A stretch of 64,000 nucleotides of DNA from Planctomycetaceae bacterium (GTDB taxonomy: Bacteria; Planctomycetota; Planctomycetia; Planctomycetales; Planctomycetaceae), in the NCBI GenBank assembly GCA_947476295.1, contig CANJQC010000008.1:1-64000 (forward strand), written 5' to 3'. Below are positions 25,954-55,154 of this stretch, in pieces. Under the pieces are notes generated by a model, which saw nothing but the letters and a program-made list of their open reading frames with translations, was not told the DNA's origin and ran no database searches. Each line of letters opens with the position of its first letter. Within the stretch, counting starts at the first letter, position 1. The position numbers and the translations under genes were made by a program.

Positions 25954-27279
25954 TCAGTCCATATGTTCCGAGGGAATTCGGCTTCCGTGCGGATCGGTTG
26001 ACGGCGCGGCAGTCACCTCATCCAGACGATCACGGAGATCACGGCTGGTGAAATGTTCCAGTTTTTCCGCCTGACCGTGAATTCGATCCACCGCGACACC
26101 TCCTTCCGACACGAGATATTGTTCCCACAAACGATGCGAACGGACTAGGACCGATCCCAAGTCCCGCCCGGCATCCGTCAGACGATATCCGGATTCTGTC
26201 CGAATCACCTGGCCCTTGCGAACGTTTCGGTTCATCAGCCATGCCCCCAGCCACGGGCGAGACAACAGCACCGAACTGAGTTTCTGCGACGAGACGGCAC
26301 AATCACGGGACCGCTCGTCCATTCTGTACAATAACGCTATCAGGTCTTCGGACAGAATTCGCTGGGCCAGCTTCTGTCTGCGCACGATCCGCACGATCAC
26401 GCCGTTCCGAGGCGAAACCAACGATGCAGCGAAGAAGAACATCCCGGCGCAGAGCGCCGTCATTCCTGACGTGCTGGTACTCTGATATCCAAACAAATGT
26501 GGCACCAGTACTGCCGACAGATGTCCGCACGCAGCCGACAGCATCGCGATTACGGTGGCGCAAGAGATCATCATCCCCAGACGTTCTGTGAGCAAGAAAG
26601 CTGTCGCGGGTGGCACAACAAACATGGCCACGACCAGAATGTTACCCGCCGTTTCGAAGCTGGCAACGGCCGTCACAGCCACAATCACCATCAACAGATA
26701 ATGCATCAACCTCGCGCTGAATCCGACACTCGTTGATAACCCAGGATCAAAGGCGCTGAGTTTCAATTCTTTGAAGAACAGGACAACGAACAGCAGATTG
26801 ACAATCGTGACGGACCCCAGCACGATCACCACTCGAGGAATCGGTTCGCCAGCCACATCAACCGTATCCAGCGGCGTCATTTCAATCGCGCCGTACAGCA
26901 CGCAGCCAGGATCAAGATCGACATGATCTGCCGCCTGCACAATCATGACGAGACCGATCGCAAACAACGTCGTAAACACGACACCCATCGACGCACCTTC
27001 ATCGACGTCGCCGAAGTTGCGAATCCATTCAGTAAACAGCGCGGTCAGAATTCCGACAATCACCGCGCCGAGAAACATAGGCAAACTGGATCGGCTTTCG
27101 CTGACGAAAAACGCCACGGCCAGGCCCGGCAGGATCGCATGACTGATGGCGTCCCCAAGCAGACTCATACGCCGCAGCAGCAGAAAATTTCCTGGCAACG
27201 ATGCGGCGACGGCACACAGCATCCCGGCAAGCACAATCCAGCCGTCATAGTCCCATGACCAGTTTTCAAGGCCGCTCAT
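25954..27279 (-). CDS. metal ABC transporter permease with C-terminal DtxR-like regulator domain (second permease)
   Basis: A 441-residue protein. Residues ~1-285 are an ABC-3 family permease for Mn/Zn/Fe (LLRRMSLLGDAISHAILPGLAVAFF, SMGVVFTTLFAIGLVMI, FETAGNILVVAMFVVPPATAFLLT). Residues ~300-430 are soluble: a winged-helix-like part (LIALLYRMDERSRD...LMNRNVRKGQVIRTESGYRLTDAGRDLG) and a DtxR metal-binding/dimerisation-like part (RSHRLWEQYLVSEGGVAVDRIHGQAEKLEHFTSRDLRDRL). HRLWE-YL and the EK-EH(F/V) helix are DtxR/MntR hallmarks. Its start overlaps the upstream permease stop (ATGA). Fusion of this kind is known in chlamydial YtgCR. Substrate metal is not decidable. Confidence 0.88.
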   Translation of the reverse strand: MSGLENWSWDYDGWIVLAGMLCAVAASLPGNFLLLRRMSLLGDAISHAILPGLAVAFFVSESRSSLPMFLGAVIVGILTALFTEWIRNFGDVDEGASMGVVFTTLFAIGLVMIVQAADHVDLDPGCVLYGAIEMTPLDTVDVAGEPIPRVVIVLGSVTIVNLLFVVLFFKELKLSAFDPGLSTSVGFSARLMHYLLMVIVAVTAVASFETAGNILVVAMFVVPPATAFLLTERLGMMISCATVIAMLSAACGHLSAVLVPHLFGYQSTSTSGMTALCAGMFFFAASLVSPRNGVIVRIVRRQKLAQRILSEDLIALLYRMDERSRDCAVSSQKLSSVLLSRPWLGAWLMNRNVRKGQVIRTESGYRLTDAGRDLGSVLVRSHRLWEQYLVSEGGVAVDRIHGQAEKLEHFTSRDLRDRLDEVTAAPSTDPHGSRIPSEHMD

Positions 27280-28808
27280 GGCATCCGGCCTTTCTCAACA
27301 GGCGGTGGCGAAGTGTCCCCGGACACGGCTTGCTGCCCGGCAGCTCGCTGCCCTGCGGAGGATTCCAGCGGATGCGGGCTAGCAACAACGCCACCTGAAG
27401 TGCGTTGCTGTTCCAGCAGTTGTTCCAATTGAGCAATGAGTTCCGGTTCCAGCACATGTTCAATGGCGTCTGCCGCCTGATCCACGCGTCCCGGTGCGAC
27501 GTCAGCCTGAGTGATCAGGTACAATTCCCACAGACGATGCTCATGCGCCAGCCGCGATGCTTCAACCACGCCAGCTTCCGTCAGCGACAGACCCGCGTCG
27601 TCGTTGCGCACGAGTAATCCGTTGTGGCGACAGCGTTCGATCTGCCGCAGCAGTCGGAACGACGACCACGTCCGCATCCTCAGCAGTTGCAAATACGGCA
27701 CGCTGATTCCCGCAGATCCAGCCGCCGATTCGCGTGCTTCCAGCAGTTCGTACATTCCACGCAGAAGATGCTGCCGATCGACCGATCGATTCAGTTCCCA
27801 GCGCCGCGCGATGCGTACCAGAACACCTCGTGAGCGCCCAAAGAGCAGGCTGAAGAAAAACAAACTGCTGCACACGATCACGATCATGGCACCGGACGGC
27901 AGGTTCGGAAACACGGCACTCATTGCAGATCCTGCGAGTCCGCCGATGCCACCAATGCCGGACGAAATCAGCATCATGCGTTTCAGGTCATGTGTCCAGA
28001 ACCGCGCGGCGGCGGCGGGAATCACCAGCAACGCAATCATCAGCACCAAACCAACGGCCTGTAGCCCAATGATCGTCACGACAACAACAAGTGCCATTAT
28101 CAGCAGATCCAGGATCAGCACCGGATAACCGCGCGACCCAGCGAAGCCCTCGTCGAAGCACAGCAGGGTGAGTTCCTTAAACAGCAATGCGATGATGATC
28201 ACGGAAAGCAAGCCGGCAACTGCGATGAGTTGCGCATCGCTCGCTATCATCGAAGCCGTCTTGCCGTAGATAAACGATTCGAGTCCCGCCGCATGGCCTG
28301 ACGGAACCTGCTGTACGATCGTCAAAATGGCAATCCCCGCACCGAAGAAAACGCTGAGTACGATCCCCAGCGCCGCGTCTTCCTTCAGGCGTGTCAGATT
28401 GCGAATGTACAGAATTGCCGCGACGCCCACAATGCCGCTCAAGGCCGCACCTGTCAGCAGGACCGGCAACGATTTTCCATTAAGTCCCAGGTACGGCGCC
28501 AGCAGAAACGCCAGCCCCACGCCTGGCAGCGTCGCATGACTCAGGGCATCGCCCATCAACGCGCGGCGGCGGAGCAGCGTAAAACTTCCCACCAAACCCG
28601 CAGCCATGCCCAGCAATCCGGTCCCCGTCATCACGACGCGCGTATTGTAATCCTGAAGCTGGAGCACTCGTTTCCATTGTTCCCAATCCGGCCATGCGAT
28701 CGACCGATTGGTGAGGGATTCTGCAACGGCAAGTAACGGCGCGTGTAATTTGATATCTGAGATTTGAACTCCGTCGGTGAACACAGTCAGGAGAAGCAAC
28801 ACACTCAC
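27276..28808 (-). CDS. metal ABC transporter permease with C-terminal DtxR-like regulator domain (first permease)
   Basis: A 510-residue protein with GTG start overlapping the ATPase stop (GTGA). An N-terminal ~50-residue extension precedes ABC-3 permease helices ([65 protein letters not shown]). The cytoplasmic tail (~345-470) has a winged-helix-like segment ([12 protein letters not shown]...[37 protein letters not shown]) and a DtxR-like dimer/metal segment ([44 protein letters not shown]). A Gly/Ser/Pro-rich end follows. It is the YtgC-like partner; both permeases of this operon carry the regulator domain. Confidence 0.9.
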
Positions 28809-32294: not shown

Positions 32295-33317
32295 CTATCG
32301 GTTTTTCCGCCGCCGATCAGATGCCTTTTTTGCTGCGTCCGAACGCGGAATGCGGAGATCATTCTGGAGGACTTTGTCGAGACGCTTGCTGAACTTCATG
32401 AAGTTCGTAATTTCTGCAGGAAGCGGCGAACTGAATCGCATAGGTTCACCGGTAATTGGGTGCGCGAATCCCAGCGTTGATGCGTGCAGCGCGAAGCGTT
32501 TGTGAGCCCACGGGATATTTTCCCACAGATCCGTTCGATAGCGATTATCCCCAAGCACGGGATGCTGGGCCTCAGCAAAATGCACTCGGATTTGATTGCG
32601 TCGTCCGGTCTCCAGTTGCACGGTCACATGAGTCGTATCGGGCAGTCGTTCCGCGACCTGGTAATGAGTGACCGCGAGTTGGCCATCGTCTTCGTCGTCC
32701 GTTGAATACCGCGTCAGGTTTTTTCCTGTCGCAAGGAAGCTGCGGAATTCACCGCTATCCTGAGAGACATTTCCAGCAACCAGTGCGTCGTACTGTCGTT
32801 CCGGTTTTCGCTGCCGAAACTGATTCTGCATCAGTCTGGCGTCTTCCTTTGTTTTGCCGAACATCAGCAGTCCGGACACGCCACGATCCAGCCGATGAAC
32901 CACAAACGCACCGCGACCACGTCCTTCATGTTTTACATGTTCGTTCACGCGATACAGCAGGGTATGTGGTTCGCGCCCGTCTGTCGGGACCGTGAGCAGG
33001 TCCGCCGACTTTTCGACAACGACAACATGGCGGTCCTCAAATACAATCGAGAAACCACGATGCTGTTGCTGCTGCGGACGACGTCGCGGCGAATAGCGGC
33101 GATTTTCTTCGAACCGCACATGCACCTGATCGCCGATACTCAAACTGCGACCGGGATTGGTTTCGACCTGGCCGTTGAGCGACACGCAATCGTAGTCAAA
33201 CAAACCCGTGACATGCGAACGAGATCCACCGGCAAGTTCCTGCACGCAGCGATCGATCCGCCCGTTAATCAACACGGACGACGGCTCGATCACAAGTTCA
33301 CGATTCAGGAATGGCAC
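32295..33317 (-). CDS. RluD-family RNA pseudouridine synthase
   Basis: A pseudouridine synthase of the RsuA/RluA superfamily, 340 residues from the chosen start. An S4-like N-terminal part (SHVTGLFDYDCVSLNGQVETNPGRSLSIGDQVHVRF) precedes the catalytic domain: IVFEDRHVVVVEKSADLLTVPT, FVVHRLDRGVSGLLMFGKT with the catalytic Asp, LETGRRNQIRVHFAEAQHPVLGDNRY, and RFALHASTLGFAHP. The frame is open to 33581, but that stretch runs into a dispersed repeat and lacks family similarity; GTG at 33317 is my best guess and the true start is uncertain. Target RNA unknown; the basic C-terminus (AAKKASDRRRKNR) would aid RNA binding. Confidence 0.85.
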   Translation of the reverse strand: MPFLNRELVIEPSSVLINGRIDRCVQELAGGSRSHVTGLFDYDCVSLNGQVETNPGRSLSIGDQVHVRFEENRRYSPRRRPQQQQHRGFSIVFEDRHVVVVEKSADLLTVPTDGREPHTLLYRVNEHVKHEGRGRGAFVVHRLDRGVSGLLMFGKTKEDARLMQNQFRQRKPERQYDALVAGNVSQDSGEFRSFLATGKNLTRYSTDDEDDGQLAVTHYQVAERLPDTTHVTVQLETGRRNQIRVHFAEAQHPVLGDNRYRTDLWENIPWAHKRFALHASTLGFAHPITGEPMRFSSPLPAEITNFMKFSKRLDKVLQNDLRIPRSDAAKKASDRRRKNR

Positions 33318-34013
33318 AGGGACACTCGAATTACAGTCGTTTGAACTGAAAACGCGCAGAATATCCCGTCGGACGATCAATCGCGAGCAGCGTGTCAGCA
33401 AATCCCGCAGACAGTGAAAAACCGCTGATTGACGAGGAGGAACGGCAATGGCGGCATGCGTCAGCCCGCCGGTACAAAAACGAGGCACCTTTGGGCTCAC
33501 GCCGCTCCGCTCGCCGGAATCACTTCTGGCCGCGCGAAGAATAAATGTTTGCTGGCGGTCGGCTGTCAAAACTCTATCCACGAGGATCCGTGTTCTGGAA
33601 GCAAGTTCGATTCAGACTGCCGGGATTGCCTCAACGCTCAGAGTTCGGCAAAAAATGCCGACGACGTAGTGGCTGAACTATGCAAAAAGTGACGTTCTTC
33701 TGATTTCTTTGGAATGCAGCAAAGTTTTGTGCGGATTCCTTTAGAACACATGTTGACACTACCGCCCAACCGGCGATATCACTCGGCCTCTCAACCCGGA
33801 TTCGATTCCTGAATCCAAAACATCCCTTCTGTTCTCCTCCCTCTCCCTTCTACCTTCCGGAACTCATTCGGAAGTCAGAGCACGTTCGCTGTCGCTGAAT
33901 GGGTCGCCTTTTGACTCTCATCAAAAGTCGAGCTGCTCAATTCCACGAATTGTGCGTCCCTCCTCTCGTCTCCCCTCTCAGACTCTCCACTCAGCTCTCA
34001 GATTGAGGAAATC
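33318..34013. other. gene-free divergent intergenic region with dispersed repeat
   Basis: Between divergent genes this region holds one copy of an 86-base dispersed repeat (33451-33536) and about 470 bases with no protein-like frame. The last 200 bases are pyrimidine-rich (TTCTCCTCCCTCTCCCTTCT and further CTCTC runs) just ahead of the NtrC-like gene, a likely untranslated leader. Confidence 0.5.
33451..33536 (+). repeat. 86-base dispersed repeat, copy A
   Basis: This unit, beginning GCGGCATGCGTCAGC and ending TTCTGGCCGCGCG, matches 55015-55100 at about 85% with no gaps by eye. Shared cores are GGGCTCACGCCGCTCCGCTC and the ends GCGGCATGCGTCAGC and TTCTGGCCGCG. It has no coding sense and small internal inverted repeats (GCGAGCGG / CCGCTCGC in copy B). 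Confidence 0.75.
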
Positions 34014-35513
34014 ATGAACGAGTTCCCAGACGGTGCTCATCATGAGCCGCATATTCTGCGGTTCCCCCAGCCCGTACAAGCCGCGCCTTCCGAAACTAAA
34101 TCGACTCCACCGGAAACGGAATCGACCACACGCACTGTGCTGGTCTTTTCACCACGTCCTGGTGCCCGCCAATTGCTTGCAGACGATGTCCGCAAGCGTG
34201 GTATGCTGGTCTGCGAGACCGACAGCCCGGATGCGATGTTGTTTCACTTGAGTCGACAGGAATTCTGCTGTTGCATCATTGATGATGCAGACACAGTGTC
34301 CCGGATTCAGGAGGTGAACGCTGCCATTCGAAATCATTCGAAGGCCGCTCAAGTCATCTGCATTGTCGGTGAAGACTCCCGCTGGGGTCGTGAGACAGTG
34401 CCGACGTTCGAATGCGAAGTCCTTGAACGCCCTTATTCAGCATCGCGATTCGGAGCAGCTCTGCTAAACGCTCTCCGACGCGGCGAACTGATCCGCGAAA
34501 ACGAGAAACTGCGACGTCAGTTGCTCAACCGCAACCTGATGGACCTGGTCGGCAGCACGCCAGCCATGCAGTCTCTGCGAGAATCTATTCGCATCGCAGC
34601 CGACGATGACCGCACGGTCCTTGTACGCGGAGAACCAGGCAGCGGAACAACACTGATTGCCGAAGGTCTGCATCGCTGCAGCCGCCGGTCAACGAAGCCA
34701 TTCCTGCGGATTGACTGCAGTCTGCACTCCGTCGAAACTCTGGAACATCAGCTCTTCGGCGACAACGCTGCGGAAGGATTTCCTGGCTATCTGATGATGG
34801 CCGACGGCGGATCCATTCTGCTGGACAATGTGGATACGGTTGCACTGCCATTCCAGAAACGACTGGCTCAGTTGCTGGAACAGCGAGCGACATCCATTCT
34901 GAAAGGAAGCCCGGAAGGTCCCAACATTCGGTTCATCGCGGCAACGCATGGTGACCTGAATCGACTGGCCATGGAAGGCCGGTTTCGGGACGACCTGCTG
35001 CAACACTTAAGCGGGATCACGCTGCAATCGCCACCGCTGCGAGTTCGCGGCAACGATGTTCCGCTCCTGGTGGAACACTTCATCAGCCAGATCTCGCTGA
35101 AGGAAGGTCGTCCGCCACGACAGATCAGCGCGGAAGCCGTACAGGTGCTGGAAAGTCATCCCTGGCCCGGCAACGTGCGTGAGCTTCAGAACGTGATCGA
35201 ACGCTGTTGCACTGTCGATGTGACAGAAATCATCGGTCCTGACGATCTGCGACCTTGGCTGCAGAACGATGCGATCAATGACGGAGCGGAATGCGTCGGC
35301 ATGACGCTGGCCGAAATGGAACGCAAGCTGATCGAATCAACGTTTGCTCGTTGCAATGGCAACCGCGAAAAGACAGCTCAAATTCTGCAGATAGGCCTGC
35401 GAACTCTGTCCGGAAAACTCAGAGAATACGGCTACCCGCCACGTGGCGGCCCCGGTTCAAACATCAAACGAATGATCGCCGGAAGCATCGGCGAACAACG
35501 CAAGGCAGCTTGA
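34014..35513 (+). CDS. NtrC-family response regulator with degenerate AAA+ domain
   Basis: A 499-residue protein: receiver-like domain (~40-155, IIDDAD near the phospho-acceptor site, but LERP where LxKP is usual), AAA+ domain (~175-405) and a Fis-type HTH (~450-480, NREKTAQILQIGLRTLSGKLREYGYPP). The AAA+ part opens LVGSTPAMQSLRESIRIAADDDRTVLVRG and ends HPWPGNVRELQNVIERCC as in sigma-54 activators. Key residues are altered: Walker A is GEPGSGTT (no lysine), Walker B is GSILLDN (no DE), and the GAFTGA loop is replaced by NAAEGFPG after QLFGD. It probably binds DNA but should not remodel sigma-54 holoenzyme. It stands alone and ends at a strong terminator. Confidence 0.85.
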   Translation: MNEFPDGAHHEPHILRFPQPVQAAPSETKSTPPETESTTRTVLVFSPRPGARQLLADDVRKRGMLVCETDSPDAMLFHLSRQEFCCCIIDDADTVSRIQEVNAAIRNHSKAAQVICIVGEDSRWGRETVPTFECEVLERPYSASRFGAALLNALRRGELIRENEKLRRQLLNRNLMDLVGSTPAMQSLRESIRIAADDDRTVLVRGEPGSGTTLIAEGLHRCSRRSTKPFLRIDCSLHSVETLEHQLFGDNAAEGFPGYLMMADGGSILLDNVDTVALPFQKRLAQLLEQRATSILKGSPEGPNIRFIAATHGDLNRLAMEGRFRDDLLQHLSGITLQSPPLRVRGNDVPLLVEHFISQISLKEGRPPRQISAEAVQVLESHPWPGNVRELQNVIERCCTVDVTEIIGPDDLRPWLQNDAINDGAECVGMTLAEMERKLIESTFARCNGNREKTAQILQIGLRTLSGKLREYGYPPRGGPGSNIKRMIAGSIGEQRKAA

Positions 35514-53724: not shown

Positions 53725-54741
53725 TTAGTTTGCTGCATTGTCCGTCGCAGTGTCGTCCAGCAGTTCCTCGGTACTGTTTCCGTGGCAGAGGACGACGCTG
53801 TTGGGGCCGATGGCATTGAGTACGGTTTCGTCGTAGCGGATATCGCGTTTGAGCATCAGGCCGCGATCGATGTCGAGCGTCAGCGTTCCCTTGGGTGTGG
53901 CTTTGATCAGTTGGGAACGCATTGTGGGGCTTTTCTCTGCAGCTTCTACGGACGATCGGAATGAGATCATCGCGATACCGTTCTCGACTGATTCAAGGCG
54001 GAACGTGCGAAGCAGGTTGATCTGGCGACTGATCTCTTCTGTTACGCGCACGTTAACGGGGATCATTTCTCGCCAGGTATCACCGACAGCAACCGGGTTC
54101 TCCGGCAGCGGCATCAGGAACGTCACGGCGTCTGAATTGCGGGAAGTTGGAGCCAGCGGATTTGCAAAGGCTTCTGGTGTCGTCGTGGCGACGGCTTGTT
54201 GAACGTCGCCGGTCGCCGGGCTGGACGATTTTTTTCCGACCGTGACGTTTCCTGCTCGCGCGACAGCTTTCTCAGCTGGTACATAGCTCTCTGCCGAATA
54301 AGATTCCTGCAGCGCACTGCCAAGGCTGGAGATCCAGAATCGTGGTGCGCTGCCTTTAAGTAGTCGAGCTGTATTGCGAAACACAGGAGGAACTTCGTCA
54401 GGCTTCATGGTGGTGTCGAACTCGACCGGTTCAAACTGATTTGTCTGCACCTTCATACCCACAAATTCATACTGCATCGTAAGTCGTGCGGCACCAGCGT
54501 CATCAACGGATGTCACGGTGAAGATGCGTCGCTGTTCAATTCCGGTGACATCGACTTTGCGATTTTCTCCCTCCATGGCGTCCAGCGTGACGCTCTCGGT
54601 ATTCCTGTAGCGCAGTTTCTGATCGGGAGCAAACTTGTATCGCAGTGTCCATGTCGGAGATTGAACAGCGTCGTCGGGCAAACATGTTGCGGGGAGCGAT
54701 GCGGCCAACAAGACAACAGCCAGCAATAATTGAATGGGCAT
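53725..54741 (-). CDS. secreted DUF6263-like protein
   Basis: A 338-residue exported protein. Signal MPIQLLLAVVLLAASLPATCLPD, then WTLRYKFAPDQKLRYRNTESVTLDAMEGENRKVDVTGIEQRRIFTVTSVDDAGAARLTMQYEFVGM, the beta-rich N-terminal pattern of the DUF6263 group. The C-terminal half repeats the same style (PVAVGDTWREMIPVNV, GTLTLDIDRGLMLKRDIRYDETV). Function unknown. Confidence 0.75.
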   Translation of the reverse strand: MPIQLLLAVVLLAASLPATCLPDDAVQSPTWTLRYKFAPDQKLRYRNTESVTLDAMEGENRKVDVTGIEQRRIFTVTSVDDAGAARLTMQYEFVGMKVQTNQFEPVEFDTTMKPDEVPPVFRNTARLLKGSAPRFWISSLGSALQESYSAESYVPAEKAVARAGNVTVGKKSSSPATGDVQQAVATTTPEAFANPLAPTSRNSDAVTFLMPLPENPVAVGDTWREMIPVNVRVTEEISRQINLLRTFRLESVENGIAMISFRSSVEAAEKSPTMRSQLIKATPKGTLTLDIDRGLMLKRDIRYDETVLNAIGPNSVVLCHGNSTEELLDDTATDNAAN

Positions 54742-55154
54742 CTTCCATGATCCTTAAGAGCAGACAGCGAAATCTAAGTGGCGAGTGCAGTGCAGGAACG
54801 TGCAACGCTGCGCCGGGCAACTGCTTCGAAGCATATCACGTCGCTTGAGGAATCTCGCTGGTTTTCCAGGCTCCCGAAACAATTCGTTTCACTGGCACCA
54901 CGCTTGTCGGCAGAATCTGCCGAGGGAAGCAGCATCGTTTCGTGATCTGTCAGCGGCACGGCGTTGGTCGCCCGTGGTGTTATGTCACGCGGTCATGAGT
55001 GAGAGAATTGGCGAGCGGCATGCGTCAGCTTGCCGGCACAAAAACAAGGCACCGGAGGGCTCACGCCGCTCCGCTCGCCAGACTCATTTCTGGCCGCGTG
55101 GAGTATACCTTGCGCGGTCGCCAACTCGCCTGTCGGAATTGCAGGCTTCGAACG
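54742..55154. other. gene-free region containing dispersed repeat copy B
   Basis: Apart from the 86-base repeat at 55015-55100, I see no gene here. The region lies upstream of the DUF6263 gene and downstream of the DUF1501 gene, both on the minus strand. Confidence 0.5.
55015..55100 (+). repeat. 86-base dispersed repeat, copy B
   Basis: Same orientation and length as 33451-33536. In this copy the outer text GGCGAGCGG (just before the unit) is inverted as CCGCTCGCC, giving a longer hairpin. Confidence 0.75.

Follow-up and report, generated by a model that had tools for sequence, protein, structure and literature searches.

What function is retained by a protein that has the domain order of a sigma-54 activator but has lost most of the residues with which such activators work? 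The question is raised by a gene in a 64,000-nucleotide stretch of a Planctomycetaceae genome (GenBank assembly GCA_947476295.1, contig CANJQC010000008.1, positions 1 to 64,000; here called the window). The gene has an intact frame with exact bounds at positions 34014-35513 of the forward strand and encodes 499 amino acids comprising a receiver, a degenerate AAA+ domain, a lid, a Fis-type helix-turn-helix (HTH) and a C-terminal tail. The original prediction, made from the sequence alone, read this as the order of a sigma-54 activator, and that reading was borne out by Pfam matches above the cut-offs to Sigma54_activat (1.4e-29; amino acids 178-342, positions 34545-35039), AAA lid and HTH_8 (5e-10), and by alignment of the receiver. 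By its homologous AAA+ core, lid and HTH_8 the protein belongs by descent to the NtrC/Fis domain family, and ZraR, NtrC-family and FleQ structures were matched. The receiver (amino acids 40-160, 34131-34493) is too diverged to be matched by PF00072 in Pfam; it is visible in the alignment and in an AF2 model (pLDDT ~90 for residues 41-80). That model, for which the input was 21 near relatives, was weak overall (mean pLDDT 61, below 50 in the P-loop region) and was left out of the fold search.

The motif losses first proposed from the window sequence all held on alignment with PspF and 16 canonical relatives. The Walker A lysine is a threonine (GEPGSGTT, 34629-34652), the Walker B glutamate an asparagine (LLDN, 34818-34829) and the second arginine a histidine (FRDDLLQHL, 34983-35009), and the GAFTGA loop is deleted and replaced (34758-34787). 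Sensor I has also changed, from AATN to AATH. In the receiver the acidic pair DD is SP, the threonine is a valine and EKP has become ERP, the lysine that had been predicted to be altered being an arginine. The Walker B aspartate, the first arginine and the sensor II arginine are retained; the protein keeps two of six ATPase residues (Walker A K, Walker B DE, sensor I N and two R) and, from the two-component receiver set (acidic pair, phospho-Asp, Thr/Ser and Lys), only Asp90. The HTH was correctly taken to be intact, forming a near-invariant block together with a YPPRGGPGSN extension (amino acids 430-483, 35301-35462). The extension itself (35433-35462, and in relatives) is nearly invariant, resembles an AT-hook core and may contact the minor groove. 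It is followed by a variable linker ending K-A-A (35463-35510), and the last three residues are [RKE][AV]A in 36/36 family members.

These losses recur in each of the 23 near relatives checked (from the same and neighbouring genera, at 77-96% identity), with the same replacements and with every position checked invariant except one P-loop x position; they are therefore fixed and no sequencing accident. Median dN/dS among the 23 was 0.053 for the receiver, 0.044 for the AAA+ domain, 0.101 for the lid and 0.033 for the HTH, compared with 0.33 for the N-terminal and 0.36 for the C-terminal tail, so that orthologues sharing the losses under purifying selection, as had been envisaged, do exist.

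A profile built on the last 60 residues detected the gene in 110 of 150 genomes from the family to which the window belongs, nearly always in single copy; weaker matches in other families of the class were canonical cousins. We compared 36 family members from 35 genera with 16 such outgroups. GAFTGA was absent from all 36 and present in 16/16 outgroups, which also had all six catalytic residues and an intact phosphorylation pocket, whereas family members kept between none and two of the six, in differing combinations, and several have no recognisable P-loop. Constraint is inverted between the two groups: identity in the family is 83% for the HTH block and 35% for the AAA+ domain, against 66% and 73% respectively in the outgroups. 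The family members form one clade in the tree (support 100/99) beside a canonical clade (98/97). Taken together, the single clade, the inverted identity and the shared losses argue for loss of the motor in a single or an early event, after which it was free to diverge while the DNA-binding end stayed frozen. Shortened forms were also seen: a regulator of ~340 amino acids that has no receiver domain (L132, genome G074) and a second copy of 160 amino acids, consisting of an AAA+ remnant and the HTH (L146:5406-5885, reverse strand).

The origin of this protein can be read from its neighbours. In the outgroups and most family genera the gene order is TPR protein, FlgN, [histidine kinase], regulator, FlgB, FlgC, FliE, FliF, FliG, FliH and FliI, with the histidine kinase found in the outgroups only; in the window genus the regulator lies outside the flagellar operon. 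The regulator-flgB gap of the outgroups holds palindromes of the type CGGCA-N5-TGCCG, often in tandem, together with a -24/-12 sigma-54 promoter (TTGGCACG...TTGC in L147 and L157, TTGGCATG...TTGC in L161). Neither palindrome nor sigma-54 promoter was found in the corresponding gap of family members. Against the NCBIfam FlbD equivalog model (cut-off 750) the window protein scored 175.6 bits and a canonical outgroup member 369, other NtrC-type models scoring higher, and this score does not decide the assignment to FlbD. Fusion proteins of FliF and FliG occur beside or near the regulator at L133:4649-6634, L145 and L163, where the remaining operon is reduced.

A palindrome, TCGGCA-AAAAA-TGCCGA (33645-33661), lies in the intergenic region that the regulator shares with a divergent pseudouridine synthase gene (32295-33581, reverse strand), and is predicted from the sequence to be the regulator's own binding site, of the FlbD/ftr type. 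It was present 308-401 bp before the gene start in 21/21 relatives tested, exactly in 13 and with one or two mismatches in the rest; an exact match arose by chance in 0.1% of trials with random 480-bp sequence. Between palindrome and gene sits a conserved sigma-70-type promoter, TTGACA...TATCAC (33753-33782, forward strand), ~100 bp downstream of the site. The motif CGGCA-N5-TGCCG was derived before comparison with the published site of Caulobacter FlbD, CCCGGCAxxxxxTGCCGGG, which it matches; the site of a Desulfovibrio homologue is GGCAxxxxTGCC (PMC3333781). Elsewhere in the window (25954-28808, reverse strand) lie neighbouring genes for two ABC-3 metal permeases, both carrying a fused iron-dependent repressor domain (Fe_dep_repr_C) at the C-terminus.

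Across the window genome there are 71 palindrome sites, compared with 12 for a reversed control, and 32 of 50 sites examined are intergenic at a coding density of 83% (p ~1e-13), by crude gene calls around the sites based on simple codon usage. The raw ratio of motif to control is by itself weak evidence, because the control pattern differs from the motif in word content and is distorted by base composition; the footprints at the regulator's own promoter and at parB were therefore added. At parB the site was exact in 11 of 17 genus members (ParB 59-91% identical to that of the window genome), with changing centres, and several more had near matches; at glmS it was present in most of seven genomes. 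Such FlbD/ftr-type palindromes are present in the sequence of candidate regulated promoters, and the genes near sites include parB, glmS, LptF/LptG, IspF, a BBP7 porin, a glycosyltransferase, a DegT aminotransferase, LysM, MotA/ExbB, TadE, a CAAX protease and DUF6263 proteins. One of the last, a predicted target with a signal-like N-terminus, is encoded in the window itself (53725-54741, reverse strand), with a second palindrome, CGGCAGAATCTGCCG (54908-54922), 173 bp upstream. Between genomes, many of which are drafts, the median ratio of sites to control was 2.40 with the gene and 1.43 without it (p=0.005 at genus level, with kinship ignored), the exceptions being ratios of 1-2 in several gene-bearing genera and above 2 in two genera lacking the gene; in canonical outgroup genomes it was mostly ~0.3-4. 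Another protein could be the one that uses the palindrome.

On this evidence an FlbD-type activator has probably become a DNA-binding regulator of a largely surface-related regulon that is independent of sigma-54 and of ATP. The ancestor would have been a flagellar sigma-54 activator of the flgBC-fliEFGHI operon; at the base of the family, probably Planctomycetaceae, it would have shed its partner kinase, the GAFTGA loop, the ATPase residues and the phosphorylation pocket while retaining its DNA-binding end and the site CGGCA-N5-TGCCG. With the Walker A lysine, GAFTGA, the second arginine and the phosphorylation pocket gone, the protein would not be expected to remodel sigma-54 polymerase; its frozen HTH and the conserved site point to action by DNA occupancy, at sigma-70-type promoters and with neither sigma-54 nor ATP hydrolysis. 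Its targets would be dozens of genes, many of the cell surface, along with parB, glmS and, probably, the regulator gene itself. At the level of sigma-70, repression or competition is the likelier mode, since FlbD binds ftr4 and represses fliF (PMC3930126) and relatives that have no GAFTGA act at sigma-70 promoters (PMC10274813, PMC3162934). That [RKE][AV]A invariably closes the protein, whatever the length of the linker before it, suggests regulated proteolysis, perhaps as a ClpXP substrate, by which the amount of regulator, and with it its activity, might be set. The sequences establish the losses, the purifying selection, membership of one clade, the disappearance of the sigma-54 promoter from the operon, conservation and enrichment of the site and persistence of the gene in the absence of flagellar markers; binding at the predicted sites, the direction of control and proteolysis are inferred. 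A bolder version, that a motor-less FlbD-type protein is a global regulator of cell cycle and cell surface in a role like that of CtrA, acting at many CGGCA-N5-TGCCG sites including those at parB and glmS, its abundance governed by proteolysis via the conserved C-terminal tag, and kept after loss of flagella, is an idea that we consider rather unlikely.

It was also considered that the regulator still controls flagella, now without sigma-54, and that the other palindromes are chance occurrences or belong to another factor. FlbD does repress fliF via ftr4 (PMC3930126), and the regulator remains in the flagellar operon in most family genera; it has, however, left that operon in the window lineage. 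The window genome has a divergent flagellar cluster (L166; G000:C3, ~42.5-49 kb) with the order FlgB-FlgC-FliE-FliF-FliG-FliH-FliI-FliJ, unlike the regulator-linked one, and no palindrome was found there. Further, all 12 family genomes with no FlhA match carry the regulator gene (in one it is cut short by a contig end), and nine of these, which are draft assemblies, also have no FliG match. Conversely, in the flagellated family genera L168, L170, L172 and L178, FlgN adjoins FlgB and there is no regulator gene. Given also that sites are enriched and intergenic genome-wide, a purely flagellar role seems improbable.

A similarly low likelihood is assigned to an activator of sigma-70 promoters that binds ATP and does not hydrolyse it, like NtrC of Rhodobacter capsulatus, which lacks GAFTGA, requires the binding of ATP and acts as an activator at sigma-70 promoters (PMC10274813). 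Strong conservation of the AAA+ domain and receiver in the window genus and the position of the own-gene site ~100 bp upstream of its promoter would fit such an activator, although the protein has lost the Walker A lysine, the sensor I asparagine and one arginine, and in several relatives a P-loop can no longer be recognised.

In addition to a DNA-binding regulator independent of sigma-54, the original prediction offered an anti-activator. The first of these gained support from the near-invariant HTH, the disappearance of the downstream sigma-54 promoter and the sigma-70-type promoter and FlbD-type palindrome at the regulator's own gene; the second found no positive support. If the protein were a dead subunit, poisoning the rings of the genome's working NtrC-family activators or blocking the enhancers they use, retention of the ATPase fold and the presence of rpoN and 14 other strong Sigma54_activat matches in the genome would fit, but the AAA+ domain diverges between genera and the DNA-binding end is fixed, the opposite of what ring poisoning would predict, and we regard this role as very improbable. 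Simple decay, in which the gene is a fossil drifting towards a pseudogene, could account for catalytic motifs that vary between genera and for flagellar operons kept in some family genera that have lost the regulator, but is largely refuted by dN/dS of 0.03-0.05 in receiver, AAA+ and HTH, by frames intact in 35 genera, by the family-wide HTH identity and by the 23 relatives that share the losses instead of retaining the motifs under relaxed selection, and is scarcely credible.

Among characterised systems, FlbD of Caulobacter crescentus and DVU1063 of Desulfovibrio share with the window regulator the REC-AAA+-Fis architecture, an ancestry in a flagellar operon and an atypical receiver, and FlbD acts as both repressor and activator. 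FlbD, however, has GAFTGA and activates sigma-54 promoters, whereas the window regulator has lost its motor and its gene is detachable from flagella. The NtrC proteins of Caulobacter and R. capsulatus are alike in deletion of the GAFTGA loop and in their use of sigma-70 promoters, and that of Caulobacter also affects development and surface polysaccharide; they differ in their nitrogen ancestry and in needing a phosphorylation site and ATP binding or hydrolysis (PMC10274813). VpsR, TyrR, DhaR and HupR are likewise bEBP homologues with no working GAFTGA, the last three being sigma-70 dependent (PMC3162934), although their sensory inputs and sites are different; family-wide erosion with a frozen HTH was not described in the literature searched, which yielded no publication about FlbD in planctomycetes or about a bEBP family with a dead motor.

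The flagellar FlbD-type identity, the family-wide loss and a probable site and regulon that can be read from the genome go beyond what was originally predicted. They provide a well-resolved case of motor loss in an AAA+ activator that has preserved its DNA-binding end and its site and whose regulon has apparently broadened. The passage from sigma-54 activator to ordinary transcription factor is testable, since a canonical sister clade can be set beside the eroded one and there are species that have or lack the gene, or flagella. The predicted regulon, with parB, glmS, LptF/LptG, a glycosyltransferase, TadE and a porin, would offer an entry into a phylum in which little is known about gene regulation.
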